A DNA stretch of 64,000 bases, from positions 124,001 to 188,000 of the forward strand of contig SZOZ01000002.1 in the NCBI GenBank assembly GCA_030263455.1, in the 5' to 3' direction. Origin of the DNA: Synechococcales cyanobacterium CNB. Its GTDB lineage: Bacteria; Planctomycetota; Phycisphaerae; Phycisphaerales; UBA1924. The notes beneath the pieces were generated by a model. The model worked only from the letters and a program-made list of their open reading frames with translations, made no database searches and was not told where the DNA came from. The stretch's first letter is position 1. Each line of letters opens with the position of its first letter. Of the stretch, positions 3,551-27,099 are shown in pieces. A program made the position numbers and the translations under genes.

Positions 3551-4804
3551 ATGACGGCCTCGATCTCCACCCGGATGCTCGCGTGCGGCATGCCGCTCAT
3601 CGTCGAGACCATTCCGGGCGTGCGCTCCGCGGCCCTCGCCTGGCTCCTGCCCGCCGGTTCAGCCACCGATCCCGCCCACCTCGAGGGACGATCGACGCTC
3701 GTTTCAGAACTCCTGCTCCGGGGCGCGGGCGACCTCGGTTCGCGCGAGCAGGCCGATGCCTTCGACCGCCTCGGCGTCAACCGCTCCACTTCCGTCGGCA
3801 CCTACTCCCTGACCATCTCGGCCACGCTGCTTGGGAACCGCCTCCCCGAGGCCTTGCCGCTCATCGTGGACATGGTCCGCCGTCCGCGATTCGACCCCAC
3901 CGCGCTCGAACCCGTCCGCGACCTCGCGCTCCAGTCGCTCGACAGTCTGCGCGACGACCCCCCGGAGCGTGCGTCGATCCTCGCCAAGGCACGCCATCTC
4001 CCCGTCCCGATCAACCGCTCCGGACTCGGCACCGAGGAGGGCCTCGGTTCGTGCACGATCGAGGACATCGCGGAGTCGTGGCACGCGCTGGCGCGACCGG
4101 GCCGCTCGATTCTCGCGCTGGCCGGCGCGGTGGACGCCGACGCCGCCGCACGCGCCCTCGACGCCCTTCTCGCCGACTGGGCGGGCACGACGCCCGAACC
4201 CGTGCTCGGCCCGCCGCCGCCGCGCGGCTACGCCCACGAACCGGACGAGAGCTCGCAGGTGCAGGTGATCGTCGCCCATGACGCTCCGCCGGAGCGTGAC
4301 ACGAACTCGACCGCCGAGCGTGTCGTGAACGCCGTCCTCTCCGCCGGGATGTCCTCGCGCCTCTTCACCGAGGTCCGCGAGAAGCGGGGGCTGTGCTACT
4401 CCGTCAGCGCGGGATACACACCCGCCCGCGACCACGGCATCGTCTCGGCCTACGTCGGCACCATGCCCGACCGCGCTCAGCACTCCCTCGAAGTGCTGCT
4501 GGCCGAGATGCGCCGCATCAACACTCCCGACGGACGGATCACGCGAGAGGAGTTCGACCGCGCCATCGTGGGCATGAAATCCCGGCTGATCTTCTCCGGC
4601 GAGTCCACCTCCGCCCGGGCAGGCGCGCTCGCCACCGACTACCACAAGCTCGGCCGCGCCAGGAGCCTCGCCGAGATGGCCGCCGAGATCGACCGCCTCA
4701 CCCTCGACGGCGTGAACGCTTACCTGTCACGCCGATCGCTCGGGCGGCTCACCATCCAGACGCTCGGCCCGGCGCCGCTCGTTGCACCGGACGGCGCGGC
4801 GTGA
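3551..4804 (+). CDS. M16-family peptidase-like protein lacking the zinc motif
   Basis: A 417-residue protein with the two-lobed M16 (insulinase/processing peptidase) fold. The C-terminal lobe has the family segment LFTEVREKRGLCYSVSAGY, including the conserved Arg and Tyr pair. In the N-terminal lobe, where active members carry HxxEH, the aligned stretch is TLVSE (about residues 49-53), so the zinc-binding motif is absent. Known heterodimeric M16 enzymes consist of one catalytic and one non-catalytic subunit; this resembles the latter, but no catalytic partner lies next to it. There is no signal peptide. The ATG at 3551 follows an AAAAAGGAACC purine-rich stretch. The family is sure; activity is doubtful. 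Confidence 0.85.
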   Translation: MTASISTRMLACGMPLIVETIPGVRSAALAWLLPAGSATDPAHLEGRSTLVSELLLRGAGDLGSREQADAFDRLGVNRSTSVGTYSLTISATLLGNRLPEALPLIVDMVRRPRFDPTALEPVRDLALQSLDSLRDDPPERASILAKARHLPVPINRSGLGTEEGLGSCTIEDIAESWHALARPGRSILALAGAVDADAAARALDALLADWAGTTPEPVLGPPPPRGYAHEPDESSQVQVIVAHDAPPERDTNSTAERVVNAVLSAGMSSRLFTEVREKRGLCYSVSAGYTPARDHGIVSAYVGTMPDRAQHSLEVLLAEMRRINTPDGRITREEFDRAIVGMKSRLIFSGESTSARAGALATDYHKLGRARSLAEMAAEIDRLTLDGVNAYLSRRSLGRLTIQTLGPAPLVAPDGAA

Positions 4805-4909
4805 TCGATCGTATCGAGGGACCGGGGAAACAGGCATCAAGGAGGTCGGGGCGAAGCCAACTCTCCGGAACCGGGCTTTGCAGGCCCCGACTTCATACAC
4901 TCCCCTCCC

Positions 4910-6670
4910 ATGCGCGATCTGCCCCGCGCCCATCCCTGGCACTACGTGCTGCTCGCGGGGCTGCTCGTCGTGCTCGGCGCATTCCTTGTCCATCCCATCC
5001 TGCTGACCGTCCGGGGCGGCTTCGCCGCCGACCCGGCCACCGGGCGCGGCTTCACGCTCGACCACCTCCGCCTTGTTTTTCTCGACCCTTCGCTGATGGC
5101 GGGGCTGGGCAACTCGTTCCTGGTCGCCGTCTGTACGACGCTCGTGTGCGTGGCGATCGCCCTGCCCCTTGCGGTCGCGGGCGCGAACTACCGCTTCCCC
5201 TTCAAGCCCGCCCTCAACGCCATGATCCTCGTGCCGTTGATCCTGCCGCCGTTCGTCGGGGCGATCGGCCTGCGGGCGTTGCTGGGGCGCGAGGGAGCGA
5301 TCAACGCCATGCTCGGCACCGAGTGGGACGTGCTGGGCGAGGGCCGCTTCTGGGGCGTCGTCATCGCCGAGGCGCTGCACCTCTATCCCATCATCTACCT
5401 GAACGCCGCGGCCGCGCTCGCCAACCTCGACCCCGCCCTCGACGAAGCCGCCGAGAACCTCGGGGCTGGGCCGTGGCGGCGGTTCTTCCGCGTCACGCTG
5501 CCGCTGATCCGCCCCGGCCTCTTCGCCGGCGGCACGATCGTCTTCATCTGGTCCTTCACGGAACTCGGCACGCCGCTGATGTTCGATTACTACACCGTCA
5601 CGCCGGTGCAGGTCTTCTTCGGCCTCAAGGAGGTTGAGAACTCCGCCCAGCCCTACGCCCTGACCGTCGTGCTGCTCGCGTCGTCGGTGCTGCTCTATGT
5701 ACTCGGGCGGGTCGCCTTCGGGCGGCGAGGCCACGCGATGTACGCCAAGGCCTCGCGGGCCGGCGGTGAGACCGTCCTGAGCGGGCCGGGCGGCTGGGCG
5801 GTCACGCTTGGCTTCGCGGCTGTCACGCTCGTCGCCGTCCTGCCTCACCTCGGCGTCATCTTCACCAGCCTCAGCATGCCCGGGCGGTGGTACGGCACGA
5901 TCCTGCCGACGGAGTTCACGCTATCGCATTATGGGGCAGCACTCGGAGACGAGGCGGCTTCCACCAGCATCCGCAACAGCCTCGTGCTCTCGCTGGCTGC
6001 GATGGGGCTGGACCTGCTGCTCGGCCTTGTCGTCGCGTACCTCGTGGTGCGGACGAGTGTTCGCGGCCGAAACGTGCTGGACGCGCTCTGCATGTTGCCG
6101 CTCGCGGTCCCGGGGCTGGTGATGGCGTTCGGCTACGTTGCCATGACACTCGCGTGGCCCTTCGGCCGCCCGCTCTCGCTCCTGTGGCTCGGCGTGGAGG
6201 TTCCGCCGCTGCTCTCGGGCACGCTCGACGTGCTCGGCCCCGACCCCAACCCGTTCCCGCTGCTGGTCATCGCCTATGCCGTGCGCCGCCTGCCGTACAT
6301 CGTGCGGGCGACCGTCGCGGGGCTGGAGCAGACCTCCGGCGAACTGGAGGACGCCGCCGTCAACCTCGGCGCGTCGCGCCTGACGGCCGTGCGCAAGGTC
6401 ATTGTTCCGCTCATCATGGCGAACCTCATCGCGGGCGGACTTCTGGTCTTCAGTTTCTCGATGCTCGAGGTGAGCGACTCGCTGATCCTCGCCCAGAAGG
6501 CGGAGCACTACCCCATCACCAAGCAGATTTTCGCCTTTACCGAGACGCTCGGCACGGGCCAGTACGTCGCCAGCGCGATGGGCGTGTGGGGGATGGCGCT
6601 GCTGACGGTCACGCTCGTCGGCGCGTCCGCGCTGCTCGGCAAGAAACTCGGATCGATCTTCAGGGTGTGA
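4910..6670 (+). CDS. Fused ABC transporter permease, iron(III)-type (FbpB-like)
   Basis: A 586-residue inner-membrane protein with two consecutive binding-protein-dependent permease domains in one chain, as in FbpB/SfuB ferric-iron permeases. Each half carries an EAA loop that contacts the ATPase: EAAENLGAGPWRRFF in the first and EDAAVNLGASRLTAVRK in the second. About twelve hydrophobic segments are visible. No ATPase or periplasmic binding-protein gene is adjacent, so its partners must be encoded elsewhere. The substrate, probably ferric iron or a similar ligand, is inferred from the fused architecture. The start ATG has little upstream ribosome site. Confidence 0.85.
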   Translation: MRDLPRAHPWHYVLLAGLLVVLGAFLVHPILLTVRGGFAADPATGRGFTLDHLRLVFLDPSLMAGLGNSFLVAVCTTLVCVAIALPLAVAGANYRFPFKPALNAMILVPLILPPFVGAIGLRALLGREGAINAMLGTEWDVLGEGRFWGVVIAEALHLYPIIYLNAAAALANLDPALDEAAENLGAGPWRRFFRVTLPLIRPGLFAGGTIVFIWSFTELGTPLMFDYYTVTPVQVFFGLKEVENSAQPYALTVVLLASSVLLYVLGRVAFGRRGHAMYAKASRAGGETVLSGPGGWAVTLGFAAVTLVAVLPHLGVIFTSLSMPGRWYGTILPTEFTLSHYGAALGDEAASTSIRNSLVLSLAAMGLDLLLGLVVAYLVVRTSVRGRNVLDALCMLPLAVPGLVMAFGYVAMTLAWPFGRPLSLLWLGVEVPPLLSGTLDVLGPDPNPFPLLVIAYAVRRLPYIVRATVAGLEQTSGELEDAAVNLGASRLTAVRKVIVPLIMANLIAGGLLVFSFSMLEVSDSLILAQKAEHYPITKQIFAFTETLGTGQYVASAMGVWGMALLTVTLVGASALLGKKLGSIFRV

Positions 6671-20012: not shown

Positions 20013-20894
20013 ATGAGACTGGCGTGTGTTGGTATGGCCGCTCTGGCCACGGTTGTTGTCGGCGCCTCGGCGCAGTATCTGATGATGCCCGACTCGACAA
20101 ACAACCGCCTTGTGCTGTTCGATCCATTCGATGGCTCGGTGGTGAACTCCAACTACTTCGCCCTGCAGGGCGGGACGCCCATCCACGCCATGCAGGTCGG
20201 CAACCAGATCTGGGTCTCCGAGCAGGTCGGCGATCGCATCTCGCGCTGGGACGTCGTCACCGGTGCGCACCTCGGCGACATCTCCGGCGGACTCGACAAC
20301 ATCCGTGGGATGGGCCTCATCAACAACACCGTCTACGTGACCAACTCGGGAACGTCGAACGGCGCGCCCGGCAACTCGGTCGTGATGTTCGACACCAACG
20401 GCAACAACCTCGGCTTCTTCTCGACCGTCGGCCTGGCGCCAAGCCCCTTCGGCATCCTCGCGCACCAGGGCGGCATGCTCGTCTCGTCCTCCAGCGCGAA
20501 CGACGACATCCACCGCTTCGCGCTCGACGGCACGCCTCTCGGCACGTTCCACAACAGTGGTGACCTGAACTTCGCCGAGCAGATGAACTACGACGCCAAC
20601 GGCAACGTCCTCGTCGCCGGATTCTCCTCGCCCGCGGGAACCAAGGTTCTCGACGTCAACACCGGCGCCCTGCTCGACTCGATCGCCGGCTCCGGAAACC
20701 GCGGCGTCTGGCAGCTCGGCAACGGCAACATCATGTGGACCAACGGCTCCGGCGCCAACATCTGGGACGGCACCAGCAGCACACTCATCTACGCAGGCGG
20801 CGGCCGATACATCGACTTCGTACTCATCCCCACCCCCGGCGGACTCGCCCTCCTCGGTGTCGCCGGCCTCCTCGGCGCCCGTCGCCGACGCTGA
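20013..20894 (+). CDS. Exported PEP-CTERM-like beta-propeller-type protein
   Basis: A 293-residue secreted protein: signal peptide at residues 1-20 (ending VVVGASAQ), then repeated short beta segments of a propeller-like type (NQIWVSEQVGDRISRWDV, NTVYVTNSG, LAPSPFGILAHQGGMLV). The C-terminal tail has PTPGGLALLGVAGLLGA followed by four Arg, a PEP-CTERM-like sorting signal common in Phycisphaerae. Such tails are recognised by an exosortase-type system, which is not encoded here. The ribosome site GGAGGAATGACCC directly precedes ATG 20013. A strong intrinsic terminator follows 35 nt after the stop. The role of the body is unknown. Confidence 0.85.
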   Translation: MRLACVGMAALATVVVGASAQYLMMPDSTNNRLVLFDPFDGSVVNSNYFALQGGTPIHAMQVGNQIWVSEQVGDRISRWDVVTGAHLGDISGGLDNIRGMGLINNTVYVTNSGTSNGAPGNSVVMFDTNGNNLGFFSTVGLAPSPFGILAHQGGMLVSSSSANDDIHRFALDGTPLGTFHNSGDLNFAEQMNYDANGNVLVAGFSSPAGTKVLDVNTGALLDSIAGSGNRGVWQLGNGNIMWTNGSGANIWDGTSSTLIYAGGGRYIDFVLIPTPGGLALLGVAGLLGARRRR

Positions 20895-20982: not shown

Positions 20983-21507
20983 CTACGCCCCCCACTCCCC
21001 CGCGTACAGCGTGATGAACCCGGCAGCATCCCGCCCCGCCAACTCGAACATCCGCTTGGCGATCTGCCGCAGGTGAAGCGCATCGTGCGCCGCCCACGCC
21101 CCGAGCAGGTCGCCCGCCCGGATCGGCCCGAACTTCGGGTGCTCGTACGCCAACGACCAGTCCGCCCCCGCCGCGACCACGGGCCGAAGCCACGCGATCG
21201 ACGCCTCGCGCTCGCGCACGAACCGCTCCACGCTCTCGCGCAGCCCGCGCTCGTTGTACCGACGCTCCCGCGCCCACCCCTCCGGGTCGATCGCCGGCCA
21301 CGCCCCCTCGCGCCGCTCCAGCACGAACCGCACACGCGCACGAAAATCATCCGCTTCCTCGTCGGCCAGGTGGTTCACCACCTCCAGCACCGACCACGCC
21401 CCGCTCGCCGGCTTCCACCGCGCATCCGCCTCGCGCACGCACGCCGCCACACCCGGCAGCGCACGCCCGAACGCCTCCAGCCGATCGACGATCGCCGACG
21501 CGTTCAT
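20983..21507 (-). CDS. DinB-superfamily protein
   Basis: A 174-residue four-helix-bundle protein of the DinB/YfiT type. The helix SGAWSVLEVVNHLADEEADDF carries one metal histidine, and GAWAAHDALHLRQI holds the other two (HxxxH). DinB-like proteins are often metal-dependent thiol transferases (bacillithiol or mycothiol S-transferases) or hydrolases; the substrate here is unknown. It is a single gene, convergent with the PEP-CTERM gene and separated from the next leftward operon by 63 nt. Confidence 0.87.
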   Translation of the reverse strand: MNASAIVDRLEAFGRALPGVAACVREADARWKPASGAWSVLEVVNHLADEEADDFRARVRFVLERREGAWPAIDPEGWARERRYNERGLRESVERFVREREASIAWLRPVVAAGADWSLAYEHPKFGPIRAGDLLGAWAAHDALHLRQIAKRMFELAGRDAAGFITLYAGEWGA

Positions 21508-21570: not shown

Positions 21571-22026
21571 TCACCGACGCCTGGTATGGGAACCGAAGGT
21601 CCAGAACAAGGCACCGATGAGCACACAATTCCTACCGATCCCAAAGAGCGCCTCGGCACGGTTCGACTCGAAGACCTTGACAACGCCCAGGCACCCGCAC
21701 GCAGGCGGACGGGATGAAGCCGCAAAGTAAAGCAAGACAAATGAGAAGCCGCCAAGAAGACTCACCGAAGCCCAAGCGGAGTACGTGCCCGCAAAGACGA
21801 GAAGCCCGTACCCGACGACGGCCTCGACGCCAACGATAGTTCCTACGCCCAGAGAACGGAGTGCTTCAGGCATTCCGACGTATTCCATCGCTGGAATCAG
21901 GCTTGCCGGATGCCACGCTTTGAGCATCGCGGATGCGAGCAGCAGCGCACCGATCGCCCTCCGCAAAACGCCTCGGCCGGGCGACCGCGAGACGTGGCAA
22001 GCAGCGGCCTCGACAATGCCATTCAT
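21571..22026 (-). CDS. MauE/DoxX-like redox membrane protein
   Basis: A 151-residue protein with four membrane helices (about 20-36, 60-80, 85-103, 128-143). Typical MauE/DoxX marks are the first-helix end SAMLKAWHP, the second-helix VGVEAVVGYGLL, and the loop Cys110-Gly-Cys112-Leu-Gly, equivalent to the CGCFG motif of MauE. MauE is needed in methylotrophs for forming the six disulfides of the methylamine dehydrogenase small subunit. The ATG at 22026 follows the upstream stop by 2 nt, so the gene is translationally linked to it. The longer in-frame start at 22110 would overlap the upstream gene and is rejected. A role in disulfide formation for the Cys-rich product two genes upstream is inference. 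Confidence 0.75.
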   Translation of the reverse strand: MNGIVEAAACHVSRSPGRGVLRRAIGALLLASAMLKAWHPASLIPAMEYVGMPEALRSLGVGTIVGVEAVVGYGLLVFAGTYSAWASVSLLGGFSFVLLYFAASSRPPACGCLGVVKVFESNRAEALFGIGRNCVLIGALFWTFGSHTRRR

Positions 22027-22028
22027 AC

Positions 22029-22703
22029 TCAGCCCGGCAAGTCTCGCCCGACCGCGCGGGCCGCTTCGCGGAGAACGTCCATTTGGCGCTCGAGTTCGAA
22101 TCGCAGCCAATCGTTCTTCGTAGCCTCGTCGAGCGCGCGTTGCGCATCGGCGGGCAGGACCGAATCGGGGCGTCGCATCTGAATCACTGTCAAGAGGCTT
22201 GCGGACCGCAGCCGAACGGTGTCTTCCGGGTCTGCGAGACCACGAACGGCGTACTCAATGCACTCAGATTCCACCGCGGTCACAGGACCGACCTGAGCCC
22301 AGGCACGAGCAAGAAAGCCCAAGGCATAGTCACCCAGAGCGACCCGTTCAAACGCGGTCTCATCCCCGGGATCTGGAACTCGGTAGGCTCGCAGCGCGTC
22401 AAGGAATGGGCGCAACTCACGCGGCTCGCCCGAGAGACGATCTCGAAGATAGAAGCCGACGATGAGGAGATTGCGAAGCTCCCCGCCGGTCGCCATGCCG
22501 ACCGCCTGACGCTCTTCGGCGGAGAGATGAGGCAACAATGAATCCGGGTCATCGAGCAGGTCCGTCATTGCTGCCCGCTGGGGCCTGCCCGAGGAATCCC
22601 GCTCGCCATCGGGCGCGCCGAAACGAATGACCGCAACCGTACTCGCAACGACCGCCAGAGCAGCGCCGACACCGGCAAGCACCCACACATGGGTTCGCCG
22701 CAT
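22029..22703 (-). CDS. Membrane-anchored protein of unknown function, HEAT-like
   Basis: A 224-residue protein with one N-terminal hydrophobic segment (residues about 6-26), which acts as an anchor or uncleaved signal, then an all-helical exported domain. The segment YAVRGLADPEDTVRLRSASLLTVIQMRR looks like a HEAT-type helical pair. There are almost no cysteines, unlike its operon partners. ATG 22703 has an AGGAG ribosome site at the right spacing. It lies 19 nt after the Cys-rich gene and 2 nt before the MauE-like gene. I do not recognise a family; a scaffold or chaperone for the Cys-rich product is only a guess from context. Confidence 0.72.
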   Translation of the reverse strand: MRRTHVWVLAGVGAALAVVASTVAVIRFGAPDGERDSSGRPQRAAMTDLLDDPDSLLPHLSAEERQAVGMATGGELRNLLIVGFYLRDRLSGEPRELRPFLDALRAYRVPDPGDETAFERVALGDYALGFLARAWAQVGPVTAVESECIEYAVRGLADPEDTVRLRSASLLTVIQMRRPDSVLPADAQRALDEATKNDWLRFELERQMDVLREAARAVGRDLPG

Positions 22704-22722
22704 ATGGGGAACTCCTGTCACG

Positions 22723-22989
22723 TCACGGGTACTGTGGGTCGCCGGGCTCCTCGGGCTCGGTGCAGTTGGTCGGGAGGGTTGCACATGTCCCGGCGCAAGC
22801 CCACCATCCCGGACTGGTGACATCCGGGTTGAAGTGCGTACAGCAGACACGACAGAAGCGTTGGCATGGCTCGAGACTGCACGTGGTATCGTTTGTATGC
22901 CAAAGTCCCGATGGAGACCACCAAGCCAGACAGATCGCCGTCATTCCACCGACAGCAGACACGAATGCGAGACCACGAGTAATGCGCAT
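22723..22989 (-). CDS. Small exported eight-cysteine protein
   Basis: An 88-residue protein with an N-terminal hydrophobic segment (about 6-24) followed by a 60-residue mature part holding eight cysteines at 37, 42, 46, 49, 50, 65, 69 and 76 (pattern C-x4-C-x3-C-x2-CC-x14-C-x3-C-x6-C) and ending in an acidic, Pro-rich tail. It is too short and Cys-dense for most enzymes; a disulfide-stapled peptide or metal-binding protein is likely. ATG 22989 is preceded by GGAGGAAC, a strong ribosome site. It is the first gene of a leftward operon with the HEAT-like and MauE-like genes. No known family was recognised. Confidence 0.7.
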   Translation of the reverse strand: MRITRGLAFVSAVGGMTAICLAWWSPSGLWHTNDTTCSLEPCQRFCRVCCTHFNPDVTSPGWWACAGTCATLPTNCTEPEEPGDPQYP

Positions 22990-23234
22990 TGCCGGTTCCT
23001 CCACTGCAAGACCACTCCGGAATGGCACACTTCCGGTGTGCCTTCAGGGCGGAGCGTAATCTATGGCCTTTGCCCTGTCAAGTTCGGTTCTCCCTACCGT
23101 CGCTCCGGCGCACGCACATTTTGTTCGCGCTTTGTTCTGGTCGCGGACCCATTGCCTATCGTGGGCATCGTCAGAGTAGGAATTTGTTCGGCTCGACAGC
23201 CTTTGCACGGACTGGGAATCCTGCCTGACCCAGT

Positions 23235-23260
23235 GTGAATCGACTCTCACAAGGTATACT
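23235..23260 (+). promoter_or_regulatory. Inverted repeat and -10 element before the prepilin gene
   Basis: TGTGA at 23235-23239 is mirrored by TCACA at 23248-23252 with eight bases between, resembling a CRP-type palindrome but with two extra spacer bases. A TATACT -10 hexamer follows at 23255-23260. No -35 hexamer is evident at the expected distance. The GTG start of the downstream gene is only 6 nt beyond the -10 box, so the transcript could be leaderless. Confidence 0.35.
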
Positions 23261-23266
23261 TTTCCT

Positions 23267-24040
23267 GTGAGGGCATTCTCTCTCATCGAGCTGATGGTCA
23301 CAATCGCGTTGACCGCTGTCGTTCTCGCTCTGAGCCTTCCCGCCTTTGCCCATGCGAGAAGACTGGCGCAACGGGTGGCCTGCGAGACAAACATCCGAAG
23401 CTGTATGCAAGCAATGGCGAACTACGCGGGCGGCAGCGACGATAGTCTCCCGATGTTCGCCGAGCGGCGTCTGCTCGACGCTTTCTCCAACGGAGGAATC
23501 TCGCTCAGTTACTTCTATCAGAGCATTCATTGGCCAATGGTCGTGCGCGACTACTTGACGGGTCGCCCCCTCGATGAAGTTCAGCTCTGCCCGAGCAGTC
23601 CTGTTATCAAAGCGGCGTTCGGTGGCAGTGGCTCGTACACGACATATCTGAACGACTACCCGCCGTCGTACACGCAGCCCTCCGACTACTGGCTTTCGTA
23701 CACGATGTTCAGCGCGCCGGAGATGTGGATGCCGGGTGGACGCATCGATAACGAGCGATTGCTGAGGGCCGTCCGGCTCTCCGAGATCCAGTTTCCGTCG
23801 TCGAAGGGGGTTCTCGTCGAGCCGCGGGCATGGCACGTCATCGATCGTCGCGGCGGTCACCCCTCCCTGATCGACGACGGGAGAGCAGACGGGCCGTTCG
23901 TGATCGCGTTTGCGGACGGAGCTGTTTCGTCTTTGAAGCGATCGTCCCTCATACCCGGCTATGGAGACAACGGCATCATGCCGAAGTATGCCGTAGCCGT
24001 ACTTGCCACGCAGGCTGGCGCTCGTGGAAGAGACCGGTAG
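23267..24040 (+). CDS. Prepilin-type N-terminal cleavage/methylation protein
   Basis: A 257-residue type IV pilin-like or pseudopilin-like protein. The N-terminus MRAFSLIELMVTIALTAVVL is a type III signal: short leader, Phe-Ser-Leu-Ile-Glu with the conserved Glu five residues into the mature part, then a hydrophobic helix. Planctomycetes carry many such proteins, often with a C-terminal display-like segment such as the IAFADGAVSSLKR seen here. The start is GTG at 23267, fixed by the very short leader; no ribosome site is visible, and the -10 box lies just upstream. It is divergent from the eight-cysteine operon. Confidence 0.82.
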   Translation: MRAFSLIELMVTIALTAVVLALSLPAFAHARRLAQRVACETNIRSCMQAMANYAGGSDDSLPMFAERRLLDAFSNGGISLSYFYQSIHWPMVVRDYLTGRPLDEVQLCPSSPVIKAAFGGSGSYTTYLNDYPPSYTQPSDYWLSYTMFSAPEMWMPGGRIDNERLLRAVRLSEIQFPSSKGVLVEPRAWHVIDRRGGHPSLIDDGRADGPFVIAFADGAVSSLKRSSLIPGYGDNGIMPKYAVAVLATQAGARGRDR

Positions 24041-25010: not shown

Positions 25011-26990
25011 TCACCTTCGCGCCGCCGCTGCGGTCACTCCGGCCAGCGCGGCCCCGGCGCTGCACCCGATCCAACGAACTCCGACGACGAGATTGCAGAC
25101 AACGTGTCCAGCCGCACCGATGAGTCGCCCGCCCAGATTCACGGCCGCCTGGGCGATCCTGCAAGCGGCGATGACGCCGACACCAACAAGCGCGATCCCG
25201 CCAGCGACAACCAGCGCCCCGGCGGCGACGGCGACATCGGCAACCCCTGCGATCACCTGGCCGGCAGCACACGCCGTGTCGGTCACGATCGCCGCCGCTC
25301 GGCATGCAACGCCTGCGGCTACGGCTATCCCGATACACGCGGCCCGGGTCGACTCCGCGGCCACGCGGCAGCCCGCCCTCGCCACCGCGGCGGCGGCCAC
25401 GCACCCGGCCCTCGCCGCCTGGCACGCGTATCGGCGCGGATCCCAGGCGCCAAACTGGCCGTTGCAGTTGGTGAACTGCGTGCAGACGATCGCGCAAGGC
25501 CCTGCAAGCGTGGTGGCGAGCGTCGCGTTGCACGCCGCGATCGCTGTCGCTTCGGTCGCTGCGCAGGCGTCGATGGCCGCCCCGGTGCCCGCGTAGCAGT
25601 CGGCGACTGCCGCGGGTCTCCCCGCGAGCCGATTCAACGCCGCACCCGCAACTCCGACGGCCGATCCCGCCGCGCCGAAGACGGCGTCCGCCGCACCGCT
25701 GCACGCTGTCTCCATGCCCACCACCGTCCGTTGAACCGCGAAGTCCCACGTGTCACGCCCGGCCTGGCAGGTCCGGCGGCGCGCCGCCGCCGCTTGGTCG
25801 CAGGGTTGCCGGCTCGGAGTGAATACACCCCCGAACTCCAGCGCATCGATGATCGACTCCGCGTAGTCGCGTGCCCCGGCGACGTTCGGATGGCCCACCG
25901 ACGCCATGATCGACGTCATCTCGCCCACCGAGTCCAGCGGTGGATTGAACAAGTTCTGGGCCACCGCGTTCGTCACCGCCGTCCGCCGCTGGACCGCGAC
26001 CTCGTCGTGCGGCGTAATCCCCGCGAGAATCATCGCGACGTCGAGCGCGTTCGTCGGCGTCACGTCCGGAACGCCGTCGTAGTCCCACAGCATCGTGAAT
26101 GGCGCAAACAGGCAGCGCTCCCGTTCAATCCCGGATCGCGCGAAGAACACGTTTCGCCCCGGGAACTCGCTGCGGACTGTGGCGATCGCCTGCCGAAGAC
26201 GACGGTTCGACGCGACCTGCCAGGCCCGCGAGGCGTCCGCGGCGGCAGCGATCGTAAGCGGCGCCACGAAGTTCAGCCCGGGGACATAGTGGATCGCGAC
26301 CAGCGCCTGCACTCTGAACAGCGCCGCCGACGAGTACATGGAAAAAACAGGGAAGTAGCCGTTGACGACGACGTCCGCATTGCGGAAGTTCGTGAGCGCG
26401 AACCGCAGCGTTTCGATCATCTTCTCGCGCACACGGACGGCCGCCGCGAAGATCCACGCCTCCCACGACGCCAGCGGGCCGCCCTCTTCGATCGCCGCAG
26501 TGGGCGCGATGATGTTCCCGATCCCCGTGTCGTTGATCCCGCCATCGAGCAGAATGAGGCGAACCTCGCCCGGGTCGCTCGCGTTCGCCGGGTCTGAGAG
26601 GATGCCCAATGCCGACTCGAGTTGACGCAGCGTCGTCGGAACCGAACCGGGAATCTCGCGGGTGAAGTCGGCAGACCTGTACAGCGGAGGCACTGTCGGT
26701 GAGGTCGTATCCAACAAACTGCCGCGAACGGTAACATCCGCACGTTCCACCGTGCCGCGAGATGCCTGAATCGACGGCGGCGTACATCTCGCACCGGAAC
26801 GAGCCATCGAGAGTTCCGTGACCGGCGCGCCGAGTTCGGCTTGCAGACGCAGGCGCACGATCTCCCGGAAGCGATTCTGCGGCAGCAGCCCCTGCCCCCA
26901 CATGAGCGAGTCGCCGGCCGAGATCATCACCGGATTGGCGACCGGCGTCGCCACGGTCGCCCCATCGAACGCTGTCAATGCAACGACCAT
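25011..26990 (-). CDS. SGNH-hydrolase-like protein with Ala/Cys-rich tail
   Basis: A 659-residue protein. The first 400 residues carry the SGNH/GDSL esterase blocks: block I ISAGDSLMWGQG (Gly26-Asp27-Ser28), block III LLDGGINDTG, and a block V-like VGHPNVAGARDYAESI with the catalytic-type His. The last 230 residues are unusual: repeated Ala-rich helices with a Cys about every 10 residues (DACAATEATAIAACNATL, ARAGCVAAAAVARAGCRVAA), then a hydrophobic Gly/Val/Ala end. No signal peptide precedes block I from ATG 26990; an in-frame upstream start at 27083 adds low-complexity residues and no better signal. The first gene of a three-gene leftward group. Its substrate is unknown. Confidence 0.72.
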   Translation of the reverse strand: MVVALTAFDGATVATPVANPVMISAGDSLMWGQGLLPQNRFREIVRLRLQAELGAPVTELSMARSGARCTPPSIQASRGTVERADVTVRGSLLDTTSPTVPPLYRSADFTREIPGSVPTTLRQLESALGILSDPANASDPGEVRLILLDGGINDTGIGNIIAPTAAIEEGGPLASWEAWIFAAAVRVREKMIETLRFALTNFRNADVVVNGYFPVFSMYSSAALFRVQALVAIHYVPGLNFVAPLTIAAAADASRAWQVASNRRLRQAIATVRSEFPGRNVFFARSGIERERCLFAPFTMLWDYDGVPDVTPTNALDVAMILAGITPHDEVAVQRRTAVTNAVAQNLFNPPLDSVGEMTSIMASVGHPNVAGARDYAESIIDALEFGGVFTPSRQPCDQAAAARRRTCQAGRDTWDFAVQRTVVGMETACSGAADAVFGAAGSAVGVAGAALNRLAGRPAAVADCYAGTGAAIDACAATEATAIAACNATLATTLAGPCAIVCTQFTNCNGQFGAWDPRRYACQAARAGCVAAAAVARAGCRVAAESTRAACIGIAVAAGVACRAAAIVTDTACAAGQVIAGVADVAVAAGALVVAGGIALVGVGVIAACRIAQAAVNLGGRLIGAAGHVVCNLVVGVRWIGCSAGAALAGVTAAAARR

Positions 26991-27099
26991 GCTGCCCCCC
27001 GAGGTGCCCCGAGCGGCGCCGCAAGCGCCCCCGGTCAAGCCGAGTCTACATGAAACCTCGGGAGAGCAAGGGGGCCGTGCCAAGCAATGGCCAGGAACG

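Follow-up and report, generated by a model that had tools for sequence, protein, structure and literature searches.

In this work, we describe a stretch of DNA that, judging by its genes, is best explained as one copy of a multi-paralogue cassette found in Planctomycetota of the Phycisphaerales type, in which a Cys-rich exported protein, a membrane-tethered partner, a MauE family protein and a type II pseudopilin appear to be encoded together. It lies within the 64,000-nucleotide stretch that was analysed as a whole (the window), and its features are as follows:

22723..22989, minus strand: P0001, exported Cys-rich protein of 88 aa, with an N-terminal hydrophobic export signal and eight later Cys
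22029..22703, minus strand: P0002, middle partner of 224 aa, with an N-terminal TM anchor and a predicted armadillo/HEAT-like helical domain
21571..22026, minus strand: P0003, MauE (PF07291), four-helix membrane protein of 151 aa
23267..24040, plus strand: divergent type II pseudopilin (N_methyl), from the family of the C-terminal half of MauE-pseudopilin fusions, with a DG and a C-terminal GxxGxD motif
22990..23266, no strand: intergenic region of 277 bp separating the peptide operon from the divergent pseudopilin

A preliminary description of this DNA had proposed three leftward genes with gaps of 19 nt (P0001/P0002) and 2 nt (P0002/P0003), and both the coordinates and the strand were reproduced, as were the export signal, the 88 residues and the eight mature Cys of P0001. 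As read from the sequence, SD-like motifs GGAGGA and AGGAG precede the starts of P0001 and P0002, respectively, and the region 22990-23266 is a probable promoter region. Neither P0001 nor P0002 had a match above cut-off in Pfam or NCBIfam. The assignment of P0003 as a MauE-like protein with a CGC motif was borne out: its match to PF07291 scored 55.1 bits, the cut-off being 27 (E 1.3e-14, residues 20-143 of 151), and C110-G-C112 is present. Among 34 aligned MauE rows, K36, E68, C110-x-C112, R132 and N133 were invariant; a CxC served to position the aligned segments, and every locus had one (34/34 rows). The same alignment gave four hydrophobic blocks and a single-column fifth that adjoins the second. 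The ratio of K+R to D+E was 17:4 before TM1, 65:3 between TM2 and TM3 and 114:31 after TM4, in the segments predicted as cytoplasmic, and 76:78 between TM1 and TM2 and 60:75 in the CxC loop, in those predicted as periplasmic. This positive-inside charge pattern (N-in/C-in) allows us to predict that the CxC of MauE is exposed on the periplasmic side.

The pseudopilin encoded divergently beside P0001 bears a prepilin cleavage/methylation motif followed by a hydrophobic helix, and scored above the cut-offs of N_methyl (21.3 bits vs. 21.2) and TIGR02532 (18.7 vs. 16.3). Along its length it could be aligned, at 21-30% identity, to the C-terminal halves of 18 long MauE proteins that relatives encode, with E8, Y53, P151, K180, D217, G251, G254 and D256 invariant in the window pilin and all 18 fused pilins. 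A profile of the 18 fused pilins, built with the window pilin excluded, detected the latter with an E of 6.3e-39, nothing else in the window scoring better than E 1, and the unit was therefore widened to take in the pseudopilin at 23267-24040, which the preliminary description, ending at 22989, had missed. In two fusions scanned with Pfam, both MauE and N_methyl were above cut-off (N_methyl 26.1 and 33.9 bits).

A search with P0003 in 101 genomes (the window's own and 100 relatives) yielded 32 matches at E 1e-5 or better in 19 genomes. The set of MauE loci used below comprises 41 members, namely 34 (the 31 P0003 matches besides the window and three weaker ones in its own genome), the window itself, and six more (five from its own genome and one from the relative G308). 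At 19 of the 41 loci, the MauE frame continues into a pseudopilin without a stop, and another 18 have, no more than 4 kb away and on either strand, a pilin belonging to the family of the fused ones, which amounts to 37/41 as counted with a pilin profile built from 18 fusions of this very set plus the window pilin. The pilin-free loci (4/41) are L069 (cut off by a contig end, with part of a pilin matched), L080, L165 and L166. The initial view that the trio is the whole unit was thus abandoned: the pseudopilin, fused to MauE at 19/41 loci and fused or nearby at 37/41, belongs to it as well. As a separate observation, at L080:4982-5425 (minus strand, genome G086) the MauE frame runs into a long non-pilin domain, and a 10-Cys exported-looking protein is encoded just upstream.

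As controls served 22 MauE loci (E 1e-12 or better) from a phylum sample of 199 genomes, outside the window's genome; two of them come from the window's family. Within 1.5 kb of MauE, a pilin was found with the profile just described at 36/41 loci of the order set vs. 0/22 control loci, and a Cys-rich exported ORF at 32/41 vs. 0/22, the 41 loci having been gathered mainly by similarity to P0003 in related genomes that are not independent of each other. The results support the earlier proposal that MauE is linked with a Cys-rich exported ORF.

The 19 fusions provide information on topology. Their linkers contain 61 K+R vs. 14 D+E, and the F (or L) of the prepilin motif is preceded by G in 14 and by A in 5 of them (19/19). 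Prepilin peptidase acts on the cytoplasmic side. A basic linker before the G/A-FTLxE thus suggests that the prepilin site faces the cytoplasm, and consequently that MauE stands at the position of a prepilin leader. Separate translation of the pilin within the fusions appears unlikely from the nucleotide sequence, since the frame is open in all 19 (as it must be by definition) and an internal start within 25 codons along with an SD-like site was present only in L082.

The tethered partner turned out to be variable. The preliminary description had suggested looking for one conserved middle gene, and at least three unrelated partner families were found instead, which rules out a single one; they lack mutual homology beyond the TM helix (hhalign). 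The family that we call midA (21 loci aligned) is N-anchored and about 290 aa long, midB (10 loci) has a signal peptide, a C-terminal TM and about 380 aa, and the P0002 family comprises the window, two loci in the relative G037 and one in G308. Among the loci listed, the usual gene order is peptide-partner-MauE for midA and P0002, and partner-peptide-MauE for midB. Conservation of the partner families extends across genera. For P0002, the AlphaFold2 model (pLDDT 80, from a 4-row alignment) consists of a TM helix and an all-helical domain, and the 50 structure matches listed for it are mostly armadillo, HEAT and TOG repeat proteins, the best listed having Z 11.5 with rmsd 4.2 over 141 aligned residues, although for helical repeats a Z below about 13 can reflect no more than a shared arrangement. 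The predicted fold is in line with the membrane-anchored HEAT-like protein proposed before; Pfam gave no match to a HEAT family for P0002. The model of midA reached pLDDT 89, and its NTF2-like matches were weak (best Z 4.8, best Foldseek E 0.17), so that a relationship to NTF2 is only suggestive; the lack of a clear fold match does not point to a new fold. Since no homology was detected between the three families, a role in holding the peptide that all of them have in common is conjectural.

Furthermore, the cassette was approached from the side of midA. The midA profile gave 43 matches in 28 of 201 genomes of the order, and 30 of these matches were examined as loci. At these 30 midA loci, an exported ORF with at least six Cys was found upstream in 19, a pilin of the family in 25 and MauE in 18. 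A comparable Cys-rich exported ORF was located upstream of 19/30 midA loci vs. 2/204 other genes (Fisher p 3e-18), the latter being taken from 54 fetched loci and the window rather than at random from genome sequence. Of the two positive control genes, one, at L167, lies within a cassette, and one, at L174 in another family, precedes a MauE gene by about 1.1 kb. The possibility that the Cys-rich ORFs occur beside these genes by chance was rejected, being contradicted by both the 2/204 other genes and the 0/22 control MauE loci. At the locus L174 itself (genome G404, another family of the phylum, outside the order), an exported 14-Cys protein (minus-strand coordinates 1623-2024) is followed, after about 2.3 kb, by a MauE gene of equal orientation. 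A four-row midA alignment matched JAUZRR010000024.1 and JACTNA010000032.1 (Planctomycetota bacterium MAGs) and WGEO01000131.1 (Phycisphaerales bacterium MAG), which are probably loci already counted.

Among the 19 midA loci outside the MauE set, 12 had no MauE within about 1.5 kb on either side (stretches of roughly 2.5-3.9 kb), and eight of these 12 had a pilin. At L112, L121, L122 and L126, midA, pilin and peptide occur together without MauE nearby, the peptides having 7, 14, 12 and 12 Cys, respectively. Hence MauE is not obligatory in the cassette: either a MauE encoded elsewhere serves such loci, or MauE is an accessory component.

After its signal, P0001 shows the pattern C-4-C-3-C-2-CC-14-C-3-C-6-C, and its two homologues in G037 (52 and 46% identity) have 10 Cys, both bearing two Cys that P0001 lacks. 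In the curated mature peptides (6 to 14 Cys), the number of Cys was even in 39/44 (p 7e-8), the signal end having been set by hand in 16/44, which turned L068, L071, L094 and L098 from odd to even; the automatic count before curation was 36/49 even, and curation dropped five candidates (four odd, one even), of which four were wrong-frame or non-peptide ORFs and one was frame-broken. After clustering at 50% identity, 31/36 peptides were even (p 6e-6). Control ORFs with 6-14 Cys comprised 46 even and 35 odd ones. The Cys number differs between subfamilies mostly in steps of two, and many peptides of midA loci follow a common scaffold that can be written as C-x(3-5)-C-x(n)-C-x(n)-CCC-x(n)-C-x-C-x(n)-C-x(n)-C. 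A Cys pattern that varies between homologues, which the preliminary description had named as a finding against its proposal, is observed in part: the pattern varies between and within subfamilies, mostly by two Cys at a time. The even numbers favour disulfides, though they are not informative as to which protein makes them. Ten further mature peptides besides P0001 had no Pfam or NCBIfam family above cut-off. The window peptide matched the larger family of midA peptides with an E of 0.02, in a set of three sequences only.

In the window's genome, the MauE profile gave 12 matches, 11 of them with a Cys-rich exported neighbour. Nine of the 12 loci have a pilin, and a tenth has a partial pilin at a contig end; L165 is a bare MauE, and at L166, which lacks a pilin, MauE is interrupted by a stop. 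The latter locus (C2:332000-341500), with its interrupted MauE at about 4494-4961, an exported 10-Cys ORF immediately following and an ORF weakly resembling midA (E 2e-5), is possibly a decaying cassette. No MauD- or DsbA-like gene was noticed in the cassettes. DsbA, DsbB and VKOR had no match in this genome, which is 98.68% complete, while 8, 6 and 3 of 14 control genomes, respectively, matched. Six open frames with T2SSF domains (12 matches) are present. The small subunit of methylamine dehydrogenase (PF02975) had no match in the window's genome, nor in the control genomes, so that the missing match does not prove the gene to be absent.

The window's own form of the cassette is rare. Across 301 genomes of the order, the P0002 profile matched in the window, twice in G037, once in G308 and weakly in G024; the last match (E 0.0025) was rejected as a further copy because it lies outside any cassette. 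The exact trio was found at four loci in 3/301 genomes, the peptide frame being broken in one of them (G308). At all four loci of the P0002 type, a pilin lies divergently beside the peptide gene. Homologous genes in the same order, twice in G037 and once in G308, argue that the trio is not due to chance. Near the window-type cassette of G308, a second one (L169, minus-strand coordinates 566-2335) encodes MauE, a 10-Cys peptide, an anchored 182-aa protein and a pilin.

Taken together, we regard the chances as about even that the cassette is a dedicated oxidative-folding and handover module for a disulfide-rich exported peptide. Its action may be envisaged as follows. The peptide would be exported, presumably by the Sec system given its signal; MauE, with its CxC predicted on the periplasmic side, would oxidise the Cys of the peptide and pass the electrons to the membrane; the membrane-tethered partner (ARM/HEAT-like in the window) would hold the folding peptide; and prepilin peptidase would cleave the leader of the pseudopilin, which may then link the folded peptide to an apparatus of the T2SS/T4P kind, so that the peptide is released or displayed at the surface. 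Within this scheme, oxidation of the peptide by MauE is moderately supported by the sequence comparisons, and handover by the pseudopilin is conjectural, the pilin signature being what suggests a link to a secretion apparatus. In the fusions, MauE replaces the prepilin leader, and cleavage at the G/A-FTLxE would release MauE and pilin in equal numbers. A bolder form of the same explanation, possible rather than probable in our view, is that MauE is a removable prepilin leader, that each cassette oxidises and exports its own peptide, and that the MauE family is the main disulfide machinery of the envelope in these bacteria, for which no DsbA, DsbB or VKOR was detected. Against the module speak the odd Cys counts in 5/44 peptides, the lower share of even counts before curation (36/49) and the 12 midA loci with no MauE nearby.

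Other explanations deserve consideration. The peptide may be a subunit, hardened by disulfides, that sits on the surface of a pseudopilus or at its tip, with the partner anchoring it to the envelope; the pseudopilin of one specific family at 37/41 MauE loci, 19 of them fused, and the peptide families that keep their Cys scaffold with variable loops are in line with such a surface module, which nevertheless seems unlikely to us, as the scanned peptides, partners and pilins had no adhesin or lectin family match and, in the cassettes examined, peptide and pilin are on separate genes. We see a rather small chance that the cassette serves antagonism, where the peptide would be a bacteriocin-like toxin folded by MauE and delivered by the pseudopilin, the partner an immunity protein and the paralogues a reflection of competition. 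This would fit the divergent sequences of the small, exported, Cys-rich peptides, the 11 loci of one genome that combine MauE with a Cys-rich exported ORF, and the exchangeable unrelated membrane-tethered partners adjoining the peptide, given that immunity proteins are often exchangeable, membrane-tethered and of unrelated families beside the toxin. Against it, P0001 and the ten further peptides matched no Pfam or NCBIfam family, the partner families are conserved across genera, and we know of no precedent for one pseudopilin per toxin.

Metal handling, in which the CxC and CCC motifs would bind metal in the reduced state and MauE, in a DoxX-like manner, would keep thiols reduced instead of oxidising them, has in its favour that CCC and C-x-C clusters resemble metal-thiolate motifs and that not all MauE/DoxX relatives are known as oxidases; we nevertheless hold it to be improbable, because the prevalence of even Cys numbers (39/44), mostly changing in steps of two, is predicted by disulfides and not required by metal clusters. 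Finally, MauE, pilin and Cys-rich ORFs could adjoin merely through common descent, and indeed all cassettes found (phylum sample of 199 genomes) fall in one order, with the exact window trio in only 3/301 genomes. Such a coincidence is contradicted by the paralogues within the same genome, the 19 fusions, the arrangements on both the same and opposite strands and the 0/22 control MauE loci, which makes it very improbable.

Oxidative folding followed by handover, the explanation we prefer, may be compared with systems already described. The mau cluster of Paracoccus denitrificans (MauE/MauD with methylamine dehydrogenase) likewise encodes a MauE family protein with a disulfide-rich exported client; in contrast to it, the cassette has a small peptide as its client and comprises a pseudopilin and a tethered partner in addition. 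Disulfide formation in the small (beta) subunit of methylamine dehydrogenase has been put forward as a speculative role of MauE (PMC7794033). According to the same paper, a mauE homologue adjoins a precursor with at least 8 Cys in three candidate RiPP-like families of Streptomyces (decRiPPter), the rest of the mau cluster being missing, and a role for MauE in precursor modification was proposed (PMC7794033). Compared to these families as described there, the cassette adds a pseudopilin, a tethered partner and a fusion, and belongs to another phylum (PMC7794033).

With the T2SS pseudopilins GspG/GspH/GspI/GspJ, the pilins of the cassette have in common the N-terminal helix and the prepilin motif (N_methyl and TIGR02532 above cut-off), whereas the three scanned pilins remained under the cut-off of every Gsp model listed (window pilin vs. 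TIGR01708, GspH: 15.2 bits, cut-off 80), possess a C-terminal domain of their own and are joined to MauE in 19/41 loci. The Verru_Chthon cassette proteins (TIGR02596, TIGR02599) belong to repeated pilin-bearing gene cassettes in a related phylum, for which no MauE link is known to us; their models gave weak matches to the N-terminal helix only, far under cut-off (TIGR02596, cassette protein D: window pilin 13.5 bits vs. 70; fusions 24.8 and 25.1). Among the papers listed from the open-licence PMC literature, none connected MauE or DoxX with a pseudopilin or with Cys-rich peptides of planctomycetes. To our knowledge, no known kind of system combines MauE, a pseudopilin, a tethered partner and a Cys-rich peptide, and on this ground we class the cassette as what could be a new kind of system; on a stricter view, it could be a variant of MauE-assisted maturation.

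If the explanation we prefer is true, disulfide formation and pseudopilin-based export, so far treated apart, are joined in one polypeptide, and a function is suggested for unnamed Cys-rich exported proteins of Planctomycetota. Since DsbA, DsbB and VKOR went undetected in the genome, the cassette makes the source of envelope disulfides in these bacteria directly testable. Should MauE be an oxidase, this would also bear on its speculated role in the maturation of methylamine dehydrogenase.

As for the surroundings of the cassette in the window, the G+C content is 62.4% in the trio, 60.3% in the adjoining pilin and 69.0% in the whole window, which sets the region apart in composition. The MauE gene is followed directly downstream by a DinB_2 family gene (20983-21507, minus strand) that gives no sign of cassette membership. 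Two neighbouring ORFs had no Pfam match at E 0.01: the one at 20013-20894 (plus strand) ends, by eye, in a PEP-CTERM-like tail, TPGGLALLGVAGLLGARRRR, and the other, at 25011-27083 (minus strand, 690 aa), combines what by eye resembles a GDSL stretch (SAGDSL) with a C-terminal half rich in Ala and Cys.
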